DNA from: Balneola sp.
GTDB taxonomy: Bacteria; Bacteroidota; Rhodothermia; Balneolales; Balneolaceae
Assembly: GCA_028284195.1 (NCBI GenBank)
Contig: JANQSE010000006.1
Span: 372,001-436,000 of the forward strand
Reading direction: 5' to 3'
Length of the DNA: 64,000 nt
Made by a program: the position numbers and the translations under genes. Every line of letters begins with the position of its first letter. Within the stretch, counting starts at the first letter, position 1. Of this stretch, positions 32,147-39,084 are shown one piece after another. The notes beneath the pieces were generated by a model. That model saw only the letters and a list, made by a program, of their open reading frames with translations, did no database searches and was not told the DNA's origin.

Positions 32147-33070
32147 TTAACTAATTGCTTTACCAATTCTATTTAAAAGAGCAGGAATTATTGCAACATT
32201 ATTTCTTTCATCAAAAGGCTCAATTACTACCGTTTTATATTTTTCAATATCTGCCTGACGAAAACGATCGTAAAGCTCTCTGGCTAACCGGTCAAACTCC
32301 TGGTCATAATTGATGATGTTATTCTGCTTCTTGTTACCATTGATTAGAAGAAATAGGGTAGAAGGATCTCTAAGATCATCTTTGGGGTTTAACCAGCGAA
32401 CTTCTGCTTTGGGTTTGTAGTGCGAATATTTTTGTCCGGGGCTTTTTGGTTTCGCTTTTTCTGAATCATCAATCAAAACTGTTGAGCCTAATACGGCTTC
32501 AATTTCTTCCTTACTGATGCTTCCTGGTCTTAATATCATGGGAGAAGGCCGGCTTACATCCAGAACAGTGGATTCTAACCCAACTTCGGTAGTTCCTCCA
32601 TCAATGATGCTAACAGTATCACCGAAATCTTCAAATACATGATTAGCTTTTGTCGGGCTTGGCTGGCCGGATTTATTTGCACTTGGGGCCACAAGCGGCC
32701 CGGTTTTGGCAATCAAATCTAAAGCAAGTTTATGTTTAGGCATTCTTAATGCTACCGTATTTAAACCAGCAGTTATTTTATCTAAAACAATGGGTTTCTT
32801 TTTCAGAACCAGAGTTAAAGGCCCGGGCCAAAACTCCTGAATAAGTATATTGACGGATTCCGGAATTTCTTTTGCGAAATCATTGATTTGAACCGGATCG
32901 GAAATATGAACAATTAAGGGATTGTCAGAGGGACGGCCCTTTGCTTTAAATACCTTTTCAATGGCCTTAGTATTGAACGCATCAGCACCAAGCCCATAAA
33001 CAGTTTCGGTAGGGAAGGCAACGGGTTCTCCACTTTTGATGAGCTCAATATAATACGGTTCAATAGTCAT
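32147..33070 (-). CDS. L-threonylcarbamoyladenylate synthase (Sua5 type)
   Basis: Makes threonylcarbamoyl-AMP for the t6A37 modification of ANN-decoding tRNAs. The YrdC domain shows FPTETVYGLGADAF, KAKGRPSDNPLIVHI, LRMPKH and PSANKSGQPSPT. With 307 residues it is the long Sua5 form: after about residue 200 a linker (KPKSPGQKYSHYKP) leads to the C-terminal Sua5 domain. Convergent with the M42 gene and preceded by a long hairpin at 33142-33185. Confidence 0.95.
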   Translation of the reverse strand: MTIEPYYIELIKSGEPVAFPTETVYGLGADAFNTKAIEKVFKAKGRPSDNPLIVHISDPVQINDFAKEIPESVNILIQEFWPGPLTLVLKKKPIVLDKITAGLNTVALRMPKHKLALDLIAKTGPLVAPSANKSGQPSPTKANHVFEDFGDTVSIIDGGTTEVGLESTVLDVSRPSPMILRPGSISKEEIEAVLGSTVLIDDSEKAKPKSPGQKYSHYKPKAEVRWLNPKDDLRDPSTLFLLINGNKKQNNIINYDQEFDRLARELYDRFRQADIEKYKTVVIEPFDERNNVAIIPALLNRIGKAIS

Positions 33071-33141: not shown

Positions 33142-33185
33142 GTATAAACAACAAAATTCCGGATTGGGAACTTTGTTGTTTATAC
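33142..33185 (-). other. Long AT-rich perfect hairpin between the pilin-like unit and tsaC
   Basis: A perfect 14-bp inverted repeat (GTATAAACAACAAA and its complement) encloses a 16-base loop in which TTCC and GGAA can also pair. It lies 69 bases after the last gene of the pilin-like unit. No T run follows on either strand, so it may be a 3' stabiliser, a factor-dependent terminator or an operator. Confidence 0.7.
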
Positions 33186-33253
33186 TGAGATCGTAATAAT
33201 TTCTGTAAAATTCAGCACTTTGTATGTGCCGCCTTATGAATAATGAAAGTTGA

Positions 33254-34498
33254 TTATTCGTACACGCTTGTTATAAAATAACTGACAGCACCACTTGTTG
33301 AATATGTGGTAATAAGGTTATTAGCAATATTGATAGCTTCAGAACTGTATTTTACATCGAGATCATTTCTGACTCTCATATTGAATCTGGGATTTCTACC
33401 CTTTCCTTGCTGTCCAAAGGCCATAGATCCATTTAAGTTGAAACTTCCATTACGGATATCAAAATTTGAATTTCTGTTTTGGTTTCGGTTAAGGGCACGG
33501 TGTCCGGTAACGTAAAGTAATCCGTTAAGGTTAAAATCACCGTTTCTTATTTTCAGGTCAACATGCTCTCCGCTTAATATAACAAGGCCCGTCCAGTTCA
33601 AATTGTTTCTAATATCAATTAAAAACTCGTCTTCATCTTCTTCTTCGGCGTTTATAATTAATATTCCATAGCCTGTTAAGCTTCCCTCAATTTCCATTTC
33701 CTCTTCGCTATTTATATACACAACCTCAGGTGAAGTGGGTGTACCCCAGGTTACACTGTGTTCGATCTCAACTTCATCGTTATATCTTCTTGTAGCATTT
33801 GCCTTAAAATCCTTAACGAGCTGCTCAAAATCTGGCTGTACTAAAGAAGGGTCAACCTCTACACTTGGGGTTGAGCCCGCTATATAGCCTCTACCTTTAA
33901 TACTGTCTAATTCTGCAGGGCTAATCTTAGACCTACTGGAATTTAGAATAGTATTTCTTGTCAAATTACTGCTTGTATGTAAACCCGGTAAAGCGGGCTC
34001 CGGGCCTGGGGTGCCATCCAGGTTTGTATCATTACCATCAATATTAAAACCACTGCCTTGTACATCTAACTGGAATCGATTAGACTCAGAATATACCGAC
34101 ATGGCTCCATCAATATTGGGAAGACTTAAATTAGTTTGTTGTGCTATGGTGATGGTTTGATGGGTTCGATCTTCATAATTCCCCCATACTGTTATTCTTA
34201 CTTCTTTTGGGCTGGCACTTATACTTGGGTCATCGGCACTGTCTTCAATAATAGCTTTTGCAGAGCCGGAACCAAGTGTTATTTTTAAGGTATCGCCGCC
34301 GTTTTTCCAATTGGGGTCTACTCTTAGCTGATTTAAAACTGTTTCTGTAGCCGAATTAGCTACTGCAAGAGCCTGCTCAGCATAAATAGACTCAATATTT
34401 CTTTCGTTGATTAATTTTTGCCGGCCTTGTATTCCTAAGTGGACTAAACCAACGGTTATACTAAGACCAATAACTGAAAAAATGAGTGATCGTCCCAT
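33254..34498 (-). CDS. Membrane-anchored envelope protein, PilX-like N-terminus and repetitive beta-rich body
   Basis: A 414-residue protein of unknown function. One N-terminal hydrophobic helix (SLIFSVIGLSITVGLVHLGI, from residue 4) is followed by an amphipathic stretch (YAEQALAVANSATETVLNQL) like that of PilX minor pilins, but no prepilin-peptidase site precedes the helix. The middle is Asn/Gly/Asp-rich; from about 270 the sequence repeats short strands (EEEMEIEGSLTGYGILIINAEEE; IRNGDFNLNGLLYV; IRNGSFNLNGSMAF), suggesting a stacked beta-helix. Third gene of a unit with its own promoter; the spacing to the gene before is 3 bases. Confidence 0.75.
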   Translation of the reverse strand: MGRSLIFSVIGLSITVGLVHLGIQGRQKLINERNIESIYAEQALAVANSATETVLNQLRVDPNWKNGGDTLKITLGSGSAKAIIEDSADDPSISASPKEVRITVWGNYEDRTHQTITIAQQTNLSLPNIDGAMSVYSESNRFQLDVQGSGFNIDGNDTNLDGTPGPEPALPGLHTSSNLTRNTILNSSRSKISPAELDSIKGRGYIAGSTPSVEVDPSLVQPDFEQLVKDFKANATRRYNDEVEIEHSVTWGTPTSPEVVYINSEEEMEIEGSLTGYGILIINAEEEDEDEFLIDIRNNLNWTGLVILSGEHVDLKIRNGDFNLNGLLYVTGHRALNRNQNRNSNFDIRNGSFNLNGSMAFGQQGKGRNPRFNMRVRNDLDVKYSSEAINIANNLITTYSTSGAVSYFITSVYE

Positions 34499-34501
34499 AG
34501 C

Positions 34502-35089
34502 TTAATGATTAAGATTTCTCGGATTAATTTGCTTTTCCCAAACGATTTTTTGGTACGTATTATTTATAGGTTCTGTACTCTCAAACATAAGTTTAATCTC
34601 TATAGTTTTTATAAGGTCAAGATCAGCTACAGGTGTGGGTATTAATACGTTATCAACATCGTAATAAGAAAATTCAAACATGGTAACACTGGTTGGCATA
34701 CCTACGCTGTCAGTTTTAACTAAAGCAGGGTATGTATAATCGGTTCTGTATAAGGTAAAATCGTTCGGATTAATAGTAGAAGGCACGGGTTGACTCTTAT
34801 CGTAATGCCAGGTTATCCTGTTACTTATGCCATCATTCTCCAAATCAGTTTCGAATTGGATTTTGACTGAATCAGCATATATAATAGCACTTGCTCCTGT
34901 AAGCCCAAACTTGGTATAACCAATTTTTCTTAAGTCAAATTCTATCAATTCAGAAATGTCACCCAAGGCAATTTTGGTGTTAGCTAATAAAACATCGTCA
35001 GCAGAGTCGTAAGATACATTTATTGTAAAATAGGCTATAGAAACTAACATTAGCCCGCCAATAACATAACCAATTAGTAAACTATTCAT
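34502..35089 (-). CDS. Membrane-anchored envelope protein, PilW-like
   Basis: A 195-residue protein of unknown function with one N-terminal helix (LLIGYVIGGLMLVSIAYFTI, about 4-23) and an extracytoplasmic domain. After the helix comes LANTKIALGDISELIEFDLRKIGYTKFG, the kind of amphipathic segment that follows the helix of PilW/PulJ minor pilins, and then beta-strand-rich sequence (ISNRITWHYDKSQPVP; MFEFSYYDVD). A canonical GFTLIE site is absent. It is the middle gene of the three-gene unit. Confidence 0.72.
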   Translation of the reverse strand: MNSLLIGYVIGGLMLVSIAYFTINVSYDSADDVLLANTKIALGDISELIEFDLRKIGYTKFGLTGASAIIYADSVKIQFETDLENDGISNRITWHYDKSQPVPSTINPNDFTLYRTDYTYPALVKTDSVGMPTSVTMFEFSYYDVDNVLIPTPVADLDLIKTIEIKLMFESTEPINNTYQKIVWEKQINPRNLNH

Positions 35090-35099
35090 AACTTACTCC

Positions 35100-35618
35100 C
35101 TAGTTATAATATGTTTTAAGAAATGTAAGATAGTTAGGTGCCCGTTCAATACCATACTGTGTGGGGTTTAGATTGTCGAACTGGACGTACAATTTCATGA
35201 GCTTAAAACGGGTACGTGAGTTAGTACAGTTGGTTGATTTGGCATCACTGACATAGCAAACTGTTGTCCAAACTGTATAAGTACCATTATCAGTTGTGGT
35301 AGTCCATTTATGATTATTATAGTCGTCAACATCATCAAAGTCAGCTCTGTCTGACTCACCTGCATCTCTTCCCAAGTCCTTTGCGAGGACAAAGTCTTTC
35401 TCAGTAGCCACCTCATCAATTACCTGAACATTCTCATCGAAAGCTAAATACTTTACATCACCGAGTACCGAACCAAGAACTGCAACTGAGGAAAAGTCTT
35501 TCTCTGATTCAAGATCAATAACCAAGTTATTAAGTGAATTTCGATTGTAGTTGTGGGAGACTAAAGAAAAAAGCACCATTGCTCCCATAAGAAGTATTAA
35601 ATCTGAATAATCACTCAT
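35100..35618 (-). CDS. Membrane-anchored envelope protein, first of pilin-like unit
   Basis: A 172-residue protein of unknown function. One N-terminal helix (LILLMGAMVLFSLVSH, about 7-22) is followed by NYNRNSLNNLVIDLESEKDFSSVAVLGSVLGDVKYLAFDE and an extracytoplasmic domain with two cysteines (VCYVSDAKSTNC) that could form a disulfide. The organisation mirrors a small pseudopilin, again without a prepilin cleavage motif. It is the first gene of the unit, preceded by a strong promoter and a leader hairpin. Confidence 0.72.
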   Translation of the reverse strand: MSDYSDLILLMGAMVLFSLVSHNYNRNSLNNLVIDLESEKDFSSVAVLGSVLGDVKYLAFDENVQVIDEVATEKDFVLAKDLGRDAGESDRADFDDVDDYNNHKWTTTTDNGTYTVWTTVCYVSDAKSTNCTNSRTRFKLMKLYVQFDNLNPTQYGIERAPNYLTFLKTYYN

Positions 35619-35673
35619 CTTGATATGGTTGTATAATTAATAAGAGAAATGTCCATTTTTAAAACGTTTCTGA

Positions 35674-35696
35674 TTTCCGGTTATTTTGACCGGAAA
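35674..35696 (-). promoter_or_regulatory. Hairpin at the 5' end of the pilin-like transcript
   Basis: A perfect 8-bp inverted repeat (TTTCCGGT / ACCGGAAA) with a 7-base loop. If transcription begins near 35701, this is the very 5' end of the mRNA and may protect it from decay. It might also serve as a 3' hairpin for mfd. Confidence 0.6.
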
Positions 35697-35707
35697 ATGT
35701 CCTTGAA

Positions 35708-35738
35708 CAAAAGTACTCAGATATTGCTAGGGTATCAA
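35708..35738 (-). promoter_or_regulatory. Promoter of the pilin-like three-gene unit
   Basis: On the minus strand: TTG (35736-35738), 20-base spacer, TACTTTTG (35708-35715), a full match to the Bacteroidota promoter. The predicted leader is about 83 bases. Confidence 0.75.
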
Positions 35739-35769: not shown

Positions 35770-38700
35770 TCAGACATTTAAGTTTTTTAATAACTCAATT
35801 ACTGCTTTTAAATTTGGTATATCTTTTATAATCAAACGCAGAGTATCGTTTTTTTGAATTAACTGGAATTGGTTGGGTTTAAGCTTTTCAAGCTTTGCTA
35901 GCAGTTGTTGAAATTTTCCGGAATCGAAGAAAAGGCTACCTGTTTTTGAATCAGCTTTAGGGCAAATTATCCATGCGCGATTTGAACGGGTTGTAATCTT
36001 GTTAAACATACAGTGAGATGCAAACAACTTAACTTTGGTTGCTTCAACCAATATCTTGGCGGCATTTGGCAGGGGGCCAAATCGATCGGTGAGTTCTTCC
36101 GTCCAATCATCAATATGCTTCTCTGTGTTAGCTTTAGATAGTTTTCGGTAGAGGTTCAATCGTTCTACATTATCGCTTACATAGTCGCTTGGGAGAAGTG
36201 CAGATTCATCAAATTCTACGATAGTTTCCGGTAACTCAATTTCGGCTTCTACTTCTTTAAACATATCACCAAATTCAGATTCTTTAAGTTCACGAACTGC
36301 GTCATTCAAAATTTTAGTGTACAGTTCAAACCCAATATCATTAATGAACCCGCTCTGTTCACCACCAAGGATATTGCCTGCTCCACGAATATCAAGATCA
36401 CGCATTGCAATATTGAACCCTGAGCCAAGGTCAGAAAATTCTTCAAGAGCAAGTAGCCGTTTTCTTGCTTCTGGTGTAAGGGTTTTAATGGGTCTGGTTA
36501 TCAGGTAACAGAATGCCTTTCTGTTCGATCTTCCTACCCGTCCACGAAGTTGATGAAGCTCAGCTAAGCCAAAATTATCTGCCTGGTTTATGATAATAGT
36601 ATTGGCGTTCCCGATATCAATCCCATTTTCAACAATATTGGTTGAGACCAATACATCGAATTTATGGGTATAAAAATCGGTGATGATTTTTTCTAATTGA
36701 GAACCGCTCATTTGTCCATGGCCATATCGTACCCGAACATCGGGAACCAGCCTGCGGATCATTTCGGCAACTTCTTCGATATTTTTGATCCGATTATTGA
36801 TAAAAAATACTTGCCCGCCACGGCTCATTTCCTGTAATATCGCATCCCGTATCAACCCTTCATCAAAGCTATGGATCTCGGTATAAACAGGCTGTCGGTT
36901 GGGAGGAGGGGTATTAATCACGCTAAGATCTCGTGCTCCCATTAAAGAAAATTGAAGCGTTCTGGGAATTGGGGTAGCCGTTAATGTAAGTACATCAACA
37001 GCCGCCCGAAGTTTTTTAAGTTTTTCCTTTGCTCCAACCCCGAAACGTTGTTCTTCATCTACAACCAAAAGGCCCAGGTCTTTGAACTTTACATCTTTTG
37101 AAAGTATTCGATGGGTTCCAATAAGGATATCAATTTCGCCGGCTTCTAATTTTTTAAGAACGTTGGTTTGTTCTGCTTTAGATCGGAAACGGGAAAGTAC
37201 TTCAATGGAAACAGGGAATTTGCTCATCCTTTTTTGGAAGGTTTTACCATGTTGCTCGGCAAGAATGGTTGTAGGTACTAAAACACCAACTTGCTTATGA
37301 TCCATCACAGCTTTAAACGCTGCGCGGACAGCAACTTCGGTCTTACCAAAGCCCACATCACCGCAAATTAGGCGGTCCATAGGCTGCTCACTTTGCATAT
37401 CTTTTTTTACGGCATGTATAGCAGCTTCCTGATCCGGAGTTTCTTCGAATTGGAAACCTGCTTCCATTTCGGTTTGCCAACTGGTATCCTCATTAAACGA
37501 ATACGCTTTTTGAGCTTTCCTTTTTGCATAAAGGAGGATGAGCTCGCGGGCAATGTCTTTTACTTTTTTCCTGGTTTGAGCTTTTTTGCGAGCCCATTCA
37601 CCTGAACCAAGCTTCGTAATGCGCGGTGCAGTTCCTTCCTTCCCTGAGTATTTTTGAAGTTTATGAAGGCTGCTCACATTTACATAAAGCACGGAATCGT
37701 CTTTGTAATGGAGAACTACTACTTCTTGTTCGGTGTTTTTTATCTGAATTTGTTTGAATCCGGCAAATTTTCCGATCCCATAATCAACGTGAACTACAAA
37801 ATCACCAATGTTCAGGTCTTTTAGTTCTTTAAACGAAATGCCTCCCTGGTGCTTTCTTCGTTTAACTTTTGGGCGATAGTATCGATTAAATATTTGATGA
37901 TCGGTGTACACACAGAGATTTGAAGAAGGCAGAATGAACCCTTCGTGTAATGATTCTATGAGAAGGGAATAGTTGAACTCACCAGATGTTTCGCCCAGTA
38001 ATTCTTCGAAACGTTTTTGCTGCCCTTCGTTGTCGCAACAAATAAGAACGTTATTCCCATTTTTTGTTTGCTGGGTAATATCTTTGCGAAGAAGTTCAAA
38101 ATTAGCATGGAAATCTGGTTGAGGTTTGGAGCCAAATTCAAATACATCATCATTTGATAAAGAACTTCTAAACAGAGTTTTTTTTAAGAAGTTTTTAGTT
38201 TCGGAACCAAATTCAGAAGGGGACAAGTAAAGTGTATCTGGTTTTTCAGTGTGTGGATTTTCCAGGTTGGTAAATGAATCAGAAGCTTGTTCAAAATATT
38301 CCTCAACATTTGCTTCAATGAATTCCGGATTGATTAGTACAAGCGCTGTTTCTTTACCAAAGTAAGACAGAAAGCTGGATTTTTCTGAATCCGGCAGGTT
38401 TGTAAGATCGGGAATAAAACGCGCCTGATTCAGAAAAGAAACAGAGCGTTGCGAATCTGCATCGAATTCCCTGATAGATTCAAGCTCGTTTCCAAAAAAC
38501 TCAAGGCGGATAGGGTATTCGCCGGCAAAAGGGTACACATCAAAAATTCCACCTCTTACAGCAAAATCACCGGGTTCATCTACAAACCTCGCAGGTTGAT
38601 ATCCTTGACCTACCAAACGTTTTTTGAGTTCTTCCGGGTCTAAATTATCACCTTTGTTAACATTAATGCTGACTTTATCCAAAACCTGAGGTGGGGTTAC

Positions 38701-39084
38701 TTTTTCGGCAATGGCTGCAGCCGAAGTAAGCACAATCTTTTTTCTTCTGCTTTTAACTGATTCCAGAGCCTCAGACCGAAGCACCAGTGCACCAGAATCA
38801 ATGATTTGATCTGTATCATATGGCTTGTGATTAGTTTTTGGGAAACTGATCACTGTTGATTTTGAGATTATTTCAAGGTCAGCTCTGAGAAAGCGTTCAT
38901 TTTCTTCTGTATCTGTAATTACAAGAACAGTGTTAAATTTCGAAGCAAGTTCATTAATTGCAAAAGCCTTTAATGAACCAACAGTTCCTTTCACAGAAAT
39001 AGTGGGGTTTTTGCTTACCGCAGCAGAAAACTCAGAAAATATATGGGACTCAAAAACTCTTTTAAGAAATGTCGTTTTTTTCAT
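35770..39084 (-). CDS. mfd: Transcription-repair coupling factor
   Basis: ATPase that removes RNA polymerase stalled at DNA lesions and recruits UvrAB. UvrB-like N-terminal part (about 1-330, DEPGDFAVRGGIFDVYPF), CarD-like RNA polymerase-interacting domain (about 415-480, IGDFVVHVDYGIGKFAGF), and RecG-type translocase with GDVGFGKTEVAVRAA (Walker A), VVDEEQRFGV (Walker B) and QLRGRVGRSNRKAF. The C-terminal TRCF domain follows. Length 1104 residues is normal. Monocistronic; its 3' end reaches the promoter of the pilin-like unit. Confidence 0.97.
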   Translation of the reverse strand: MKKTTFLKRVFESHIFSEFSAAVSKNPTISVKGTVGSLKAFAINELASKFNTVLVITDTEENERFLRADLEIISKSTVISFPKTNHKPYDTDQIIDSGALVLRSEALESVKSRRKKIVLTSAAAIAEKVTPPQVLDKVSINVNKGDNLDPEELKKRLVGQGYQPARFVDEPGDFAVRGGIFDVYPFAGEYPIRLEFFGNELESIREFDADSQRSVSFLNQARFIPDLTNLPDSEKSSFLSYFGKETALVLINPEFIEANVEEYFEQASDSFTNLENPHTEKPDTLYLSPSEFGSETKNFLKKTLFRSSLSNDDVFEFGSKPQPDFHANFELLRKDITQQTKNGNNVLICCDNEGQQKRFEELLGETSGEFNYSLLIESLHEGFILPSSNLCVYTDHQIFNRYYRPKVKRRKHQGGISFKELKDLNIGDFVVHVDYGIGKFAGFKQIQIKNTEQEVVVLHYKDDSVLYVNVSSLHKLQKYSGKEGTAPRITKLGSGEWARKKAQTRKKVKDIARELILLYAKRKAQKAYSFNEDTSWQTEMEAGFQFEETPDQEAAIHAVKKDMQSEQPMDRLICGDVGFGKTEVAVRAAFKAVMDHKQVGVLVPTTILAEQHGKTFQKRMSKFPVSIEVLSRFRSKAEQTNVLKKLEAGEIDILIGTHRILSKDVKFKDLGLLVVDEEQRFGVGAKEKLKKLRAAVDVLTLTATPIPRTLQFSLMGARDLSVINTPPPNRQPVYTEIHSFDEGLIRDAILQEMSRGGQVFFINNRIKNIEEVAEMIRRLVPDVRVRYGHGQMSGSQLEKIITDFYTHKFDVLVSTNIVENGIDIGNANTIIINQADNFGLAELHQLRGRVGRSNRKAFCYLITRPIKTLTPEARKRLLALEEFSDLGSGFNIAMRDLDIRGAGNILGGEQSGFINDIGFELYTKILNDAVRELKESEFGDMFKEVEAEIELPETIVEFDESALLPSDYVSDNVERLNLYRKLSKANTEKHIDDWTEELTDRFGPLPNAAKILVEATKVKLFASHCMFNKITTRSNRAWIICPKADSKTGSLFFDSGKFQQLLAKLEKLKPNQFQLIQKNDTLRLIIKDIPNLKAVIELLKNLNV

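Follow-up and report, generated by a model that had tools for sequence, protein, structure and literature searches.

Three consecutive genes in Balneola most likely encode tip subunits of a retractable surface filament with apparently leaderless pilins

To our knowledge, prepilin-peptidase cleavage is regarded as a step that all type IV filaments require. According to a review of distributions, Nanoarchaeota is the only filament-bearing phylum without the peptidase (PMC4471445), and the ancestral machine has been reconstructed with it (PMC6668835). In open-licence papers we found no description of a type IV filament that lacks the peptidase, though it may have been described earlier elsewhere, and no account of type IV pili in Balneolales. 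Here we describe three genes of a Balneola sp. whose products, A, B and C, judged by sequence and predicted structure, are most likely the tip subunits of a retractable surface filament. They would form a GspI/J/K-like tip complex, with the motor and outer-membrane channel encoded elsewhere in the genome.

The nearest known relatives in structure come from Thermus thermophilus, in which ComZ, PilA2 and TTHA1219 are minor pilins of one filament, as we propose for A, B and C. ComZ is a GspK-like pilin with a solenoid, similar to ice-binding proteins, inserted before its last strand; it is bound to a neighbouring minor pilin and has been argued to sit at the tip (PMC6561018). The predicted structure of C has the same plan, with an ice-binding-like solenoid before the last pilin strand, and that of B is best matched by TTHA1219. 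The solenoid of C is shorter than that of ComZ, and no sequence similarity between the Thermus pilins and the triplet was detected. ComZ is likewise not a predicted PilD substrate (PMC6561018). Unlike the system described here, the Thermus genome that we used as a control has a prepilin peptidase, and its PilA1-3 are predicted type IV pilins (PMC6561018).

The T2SS tip proteins GspI-GspJ-GspK (XcpV-W-X, EpsI-J) are also encoded by three consecutive genes with the same order of kinds, and B is predicted to share the GspJ fold (Z 10.7-12.4). The Balneola system differs in having no cleavable leader, a beta-solenoid in C where GspK has an alpha-domain, and a PilT protein. The T4aP minor pilins PilV-PilW-PilX show the same gene order and kinds, and the machine here is PilB/PilC/PilT/PilQ-like, but it is without a prepilin site and without PilD, and no PilY1 was seen. 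The Bacteroidetes T2SS of Cytophaga hutchinsonii (chu_3191-3202), from the same phylum as GTDB defines it, has a divergent secretin, ATPase and platform alongside hypothetical minor pseudopilins. It encodes a Peptidase_A24 gene, chu_3197 (PMC5553014), whereas none was found for the system here.

The window analysed is a 64,000-nucleotide stretch of one Balneola contig. The original prediction had described three consecutive envelope genes, and the ORFs confirm this: A (35100-35618, 172 aa), B (34502-35089, 195 aa) and C (33254-34498, 414 aa, starting MGR) are co-directional on the minus strand with intergenic gaps of 10 and 3 bp. They are flanked by an mfd-like gene (35770-39084) and a threonylcarbamoyl-AMP-synthase-like gene (32147-33070). 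None of the three proteins has a Pfam or NCBIfam match above cut-off; the sub-threshold matches to DHOR and OB_DEPS were rejected as chance. Single relatives of C match DUF4900 (1e-8, one protein) and DUF7305 (0.003, another). A back-translated search with protein B alone as query returned no relatives.

Beyond the stop of C, at 33142-33185 on the minus strand, lies the terminator-like hairpin that had been predicted as a perfect 14-bp stem; it has 19 pairs including the perfect 14 (dG -24.1 kcal/mol, z -8.3) and is followed by CCTTTGGGTT, a poor T run. A hairpin in the presumed 5' leader of A does exist at about 35674-35696 (minus strand), but it is a weak one (z -1.95), and genome G007 has no comparable structure in its syntenic leader (L050). 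The predicted consensus promoter was not recovered: upstream of A on the minus strand, a promoter scan found no sigma-70-like promoter, and no match to the Bacteroidota-type TTTG-N-TAnnTTTG was found.

An N-terminal helix followed by a beta-rich domain had been predicted for each protein, and the AF2 models bear this out for B and C. The model of B (pLDDT 87.5) has a helix at residues 2-54 and then a beta domain. Foldseek matches it to 3cfi (E 3e-3, prob 1.00), and VIA sets ten entries apart, among them TTHA1219 (Z 13.1), XcpW (12.4), EpsJ (11.8) and GspJ (10.7), with the next unrelated chain at 3.5. As modelled, B is a minor pilin of the GspJ/PilW pseudopilin fold, with a long N-terminal helix and beta-sheets.

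The model of C (pLDDT 82.8) has a helix at residues 3-60, a pilin roll of four strands at 71-122, a beta-solenoid at about 124-387 and a last strand at 406-413. The solenoid corresponds to the repetitive, beta-helix-like body foreseen for the third protein. Three ComZ chains (Thermus, 6qvi) head the Foldseek matches (E 2e-5 to 2e-4, prob 0.99), with no other match below 0.001. VIA aligns ComZ over residues 34-414 (Z 10.6) and the minor pilin 7o5y over 32-414 (Z 8.9), and finds ice-binding solenoids over 124-391, with a Z of 12.7 to ice-binding protein 5uyt. The Foldseek TM-score against ComZ is low over the full chain (0.2), which fits two domains in a different relative orientation. C as modelled thus combines a pilin domain with an insertion and a last strand that goes back into the pilin sheet, as in the GspK/ComZ tip pilins, and in both the AF2 model and VIA the insertion is a beta-solenoid, not the alpha-helical domain of the GspK type.

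A would be a GspI/PilV-like minor pilin, and its presumed pilin fold is suggested by gene order and by the pattern that follows the helix in the family alignment (ALAQDIIEExR...FDE). The protein carries a DDxDDY/F motif and an aspartate at residue 6; across the family, residue 6 is D or E in 40/64, which is the place of Glu5 if the methionine is not counted. A search of PDB sequences with its profile gave nothing relevant, as was the case for all of the profiles A1-A3.

A single-query search with C finds relatives in 45 of 92 family genomes, and a profile search finds them in 119 of 245 genomes of the class, both counts being lower bounds as they come from draft genomes. The relatives mostly stand in triplets, and 33 of the loci whose surroundings were read have all three genes in the order A-B-C. 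In G007 the same triplet lies at the same site between the same neighbours, with 39 % identity in C. Judged by these searches, the conservation of the triplet, which the original prediction had proposed looking for and which is found through the family, is far above chance. Extra copies of C occur at some loci (L033, L035, L156), including three in a row at L156:15406-19141. In G130 and G129, two A-B-C type sets follow each other within a single machine operon (L104:13436-17187, L110); together with the L156 copies this points to repeated duplication of tip genes.

The structural matches raise the possibility that the filament is specifically a DNA-uptake (competence) pilus, in which C would be the DNA receptor, as proposed for ComZ. 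ComZ binds DNA (PMC6561018), and the best matches to both C and B (ComZ and TTHA1219) are Thermus pilins. However, the ComZ paper itself regards the solenoid fold as uninformative for DNA binding (PMC6561018). Several genomes, e.g. G007, G035 and G012, also have multiple divergent triplets, suggesting different tips for different surfaces, and this suits varied adhesins better than one DNA receptor. We consider a competence-specific role rather unlikely.

The original prediction noted that no motor or secretin gene is near the triplet. This holds for the window itself, but the genome encodes both, and the proposed search for distant pilB, pilC and pilQ finds a machine (locus L063) at about G000:C4:625037-635472, on the same contig and ~190 kb beyond the window end. 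The PilB-like protein (593 aa) matches T2SSE above cut-off (1e-95) and TIGR02538 PilB at 1e-130, below that equivalog's cut-off. The platform protein PilC/GspF matches T2SSF above cut-off (3e-29) and the GspF/PilC model at 1e-45, and the secretin PilQ matches PF00263 above cut-off (3e-27). A PilT-family retraction ATPase is above cut-off for T2SSE and just below it for TIGR01420 (9e-92, 307.9 bits vs 319.1). Proteins of 591 aa and 289 aa sit where the alignment complex (PilM/N/O) would be expected; neither matches a Pfam or NCBIfam model, and the labels PilM-like and PilO-like reflect their place and a rough likeness. Between the PilB and PilT-like genes, a small cyclic-nucleotide-binding protein is kept (L063:8875-9372 and orthologues, PF00027 9e-12), and its presence in the machine operon suggests cNMP control of the filament.

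The machine of this genome also includes two short pilin-like proteins, beginning MGQQQLLLVILVTIIVG and MANKELLL. Against PDB sequences, T4 pilins are the top matches of the pilin profile; they are weak (E 0.006-0.017) and place query residue 9 on mature residue 6. The profile also weakly picks up the classical pilin of G017 (E 0.001).

The absence of a prepilin peptidase motif from the three PilV/PilW/PilX-like proteins, as first predicted, extends to their homologues and to the shaft pilins. In the four pilin-like families no canonical prepilin site was found, bar one weak match from a separate classical system. In the Balneola genome the start codon is separated from the preceding in-frame stop by 1 codon in C, 1 in B, 6 in A (with no start codon between) and 3 in each shaft pilin. 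Across the families the median distance is 3 to 5 codons, and the hydrophobic helix starts within the first few residues. We also considered whether wrongly called starts might conceal a leader, and rejected this because the upstream stop is 1-3 codons away in B, C and both shaft pilins.

The peptidase itself is missing from most of these genomes. Peptidase_A24 was not found in the Balneola genome nor in 16 other genomes of the family (17/21 in total), whereas a filament ATPase was above cut-off in 20/21; the same search was positive in 12 of the 14 genomes used as controls. A family-specific A24 profile, which found known A24 proteins at about 1e-97, gave nothing in the Balneola genome or 15 others even at E 10. 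In the class, Peptidase_A24 occurs in 19/245 genomes and in 15 of the 159 that are pilin-positive (144 without); in the phylum sample, 15 of 130 pilin-positive genomes have it and 115 do not.

A minority of Balneolaceae carry, in addition, a type IV pilus or T2SS-like locus of the classical kind, in which Peptidase_A24 accompanies canonical pilins (L075, L076, L080). In the three A24-positive genomes that were closely read (G003, G017, G035), the peptidase is encoded at another locus, together with a canonical pilin (GFSLTELLIVLAIIGI or GFTLPELLIVLVIIGI) and a separate ATPase. In G001, A24 and the same type of extra ATPase are ~5 kb apart on one contig. The A24-positive genomes with both systems are a natural internal contrast.

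A normal type IV pilus could also look like this if its pilins were cut after a conserved Gly2 (MG|QQQ, MG|RAL) by an unrecognised peptidase that has replaced the usual one, leaving a two-residue leader. Glycine at -1 is a hallmark of the class III signal, and Gly2 is strongly conserved in the pilins (121/131, with 120/131 starting MGQQQ) and in C (57/66, with 55/66 starting MGR or MGK). However, Gly2 is not shared by A and B, MG is also a substrate start for Met aminopeptidase, and no gene in the operons read stood out as a candidate peptidase. We therefore regard a replaced peptidase as unlikely. Instead, it is probable that a type IV filament system with leaderless shaft and tip pilins has wholly dispensed with prepilin peptidase in the FCB group, in Balneolales and other Rhodothermia, Kryptonia, KSB1, Calditrichota and Ignavibacteria.

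Although triplet and machine are unlinked in the Balneola genome, the two are joined in relatives. In five genomes of the family (L039, L041, L046, L048, L049) the triplet lies inside the machine operon, in the order PilC-like, PilB-like, triplet, second ATPase, PilM-like, PilO-like and secretin-like where the stretch extends that far. In other families of the class, the triplet or parts of it occur with the machine at L104, L107, L108, L109 and L111, and share one operon with machine genes at L104, L107 and L111. In Kryptonia (L173, L189) the profiles of A (1e-19 to 1e-23), B and C (both 1e-8 to 1e-10) match a run of three genes flanked by PilB and the next ATPase. In KSB1, the secretin is followed by an A relative (L171; also L175 and L180). 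Such linkage argues strongly that triplet and machine work together. The pilin is present in 107 of 119 C-positive genomes of the class (Fisher p 3e-16, shared ancestry ignored), and 52 pilin-positive genomes have no C at E 0.001. G037 has neither pilin nor C, and its sole T2SSE match is below cut-off.

The machine could belong to a T2SS-like protein secretion system, with the triplet as the tip of a pseudopilus and not of a pilus. B and C are as similar to GspJ and GspK as they are to the minor pilins of pili, and the GspF and GspE models also score well on machine proteins. The Bacteroidetes T2SS of Cytophaga also branches with T4aP (PMC6668835). Several features of the Balneola machine and its relatives nevertheless argue against secretion, among them the PilT-family ATPase in the machine operon (9e-92). 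A T2SS is not known to have a PilT retraction ATPase. Two or more MGQQQ shaft pilins are common, and in several relatives a Wzy_C O-antigen-ligase-type gene adjoins an MGQQQ pilin gene (L067:2127-3656, 2e-13; similar ORFs at L068, L069, L072, L073 and L103), which suggests pilin glycosylation; no such gene was seen in the machine operon of the Balneola genome. A secretion pseudopilus is thus doubtful. It is highly improbable that the triplet is, as first proposed, a stand-alone envelope complex of three proteins with no part in filament assembly, since the lack of a linked machine gene in the Balneola genome is outweighed by operon linkage in relatives, co-occurrence with the pilin and the folds of B and C, which largely refute it and point to an unlinked minor-pilin set of the machine in the same genome.

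Taking sequence and models together, it is very likely that A, B and C form the minor-pilin complex that primes, and makes up the tip of, a T4aP-like filament whose machine lies ~190 kb away and whose pilins are leaderless, with no prepilin peptidase needed or encoded. The pilins would be made starting at or within about three residues of the mature-pilin start, so that no prepilin peptidase would be needed, and Met aminopeptidase may trim the methionine where residue 2 is small. C, B and A would insert with their N-termini inside, B and A joining C by their N-terminal helices as GspJ and GspI join GspK. C would then sit at the tip, displaying its beta-solenoid. The platform PilC and the ATPase PilB would add MGQQQ shaft pilins beneath the tip, the filament would exit through the PilQ-like secretin, and PilT would retract it. 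We infer this assembly order, the tip position, extension and retraction, and likewise the ligand of the solenoid, which may be DNA, a surface or a glycan.

Other gene contexts of the triplet were also seen. Some triplets lie beside three to four secreted DUF4402-type proteins and a PapD_N-like protein (9e-4) (L032:7179-10967, L033:10700-13970, L038:172-9665, L047:11472-13158), a context that recurs at L034, L037, L042, L043 and L044. At L038 a 1491-aa putative outer-membrane protein by the triplet, with no solved relative by sequence, could be an usher; at this and similar loci, type IV tip pilins could be paired with chaperone-usher-like genes. Directly upstream of the same triplet is a very large surface protein (L038:10430-15409) with Invasin_D3 (5e-38) and the type IX sorting domain Por_Secre_tail (6e-10), possibly a type IX-secreted adhesin partner of the triplet. 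Similar large ORFs lie upstream of triplets in L034, L037, L042 and L044. In many loci C is followed by a secreted protein of ~130 aa that weakly resembles CBM_20 (L036:8772-9164, L047:8438-8833). VirB-type conjugation gene clusters, located via T2SSE-family ATPases, are present in G010 and G065 (L081, L082).

With this reading, three hypothetical proteins and their many homologues become named pilus tip subunits. If a widespread peptidase-less system is indeed present, pilins encoded close to their mature form can do without the cleavage step, and the roles of the leader, Glu5 and N-methylation would become testable in nature. It would also explain why such pili have been missed by motif-based surveys.
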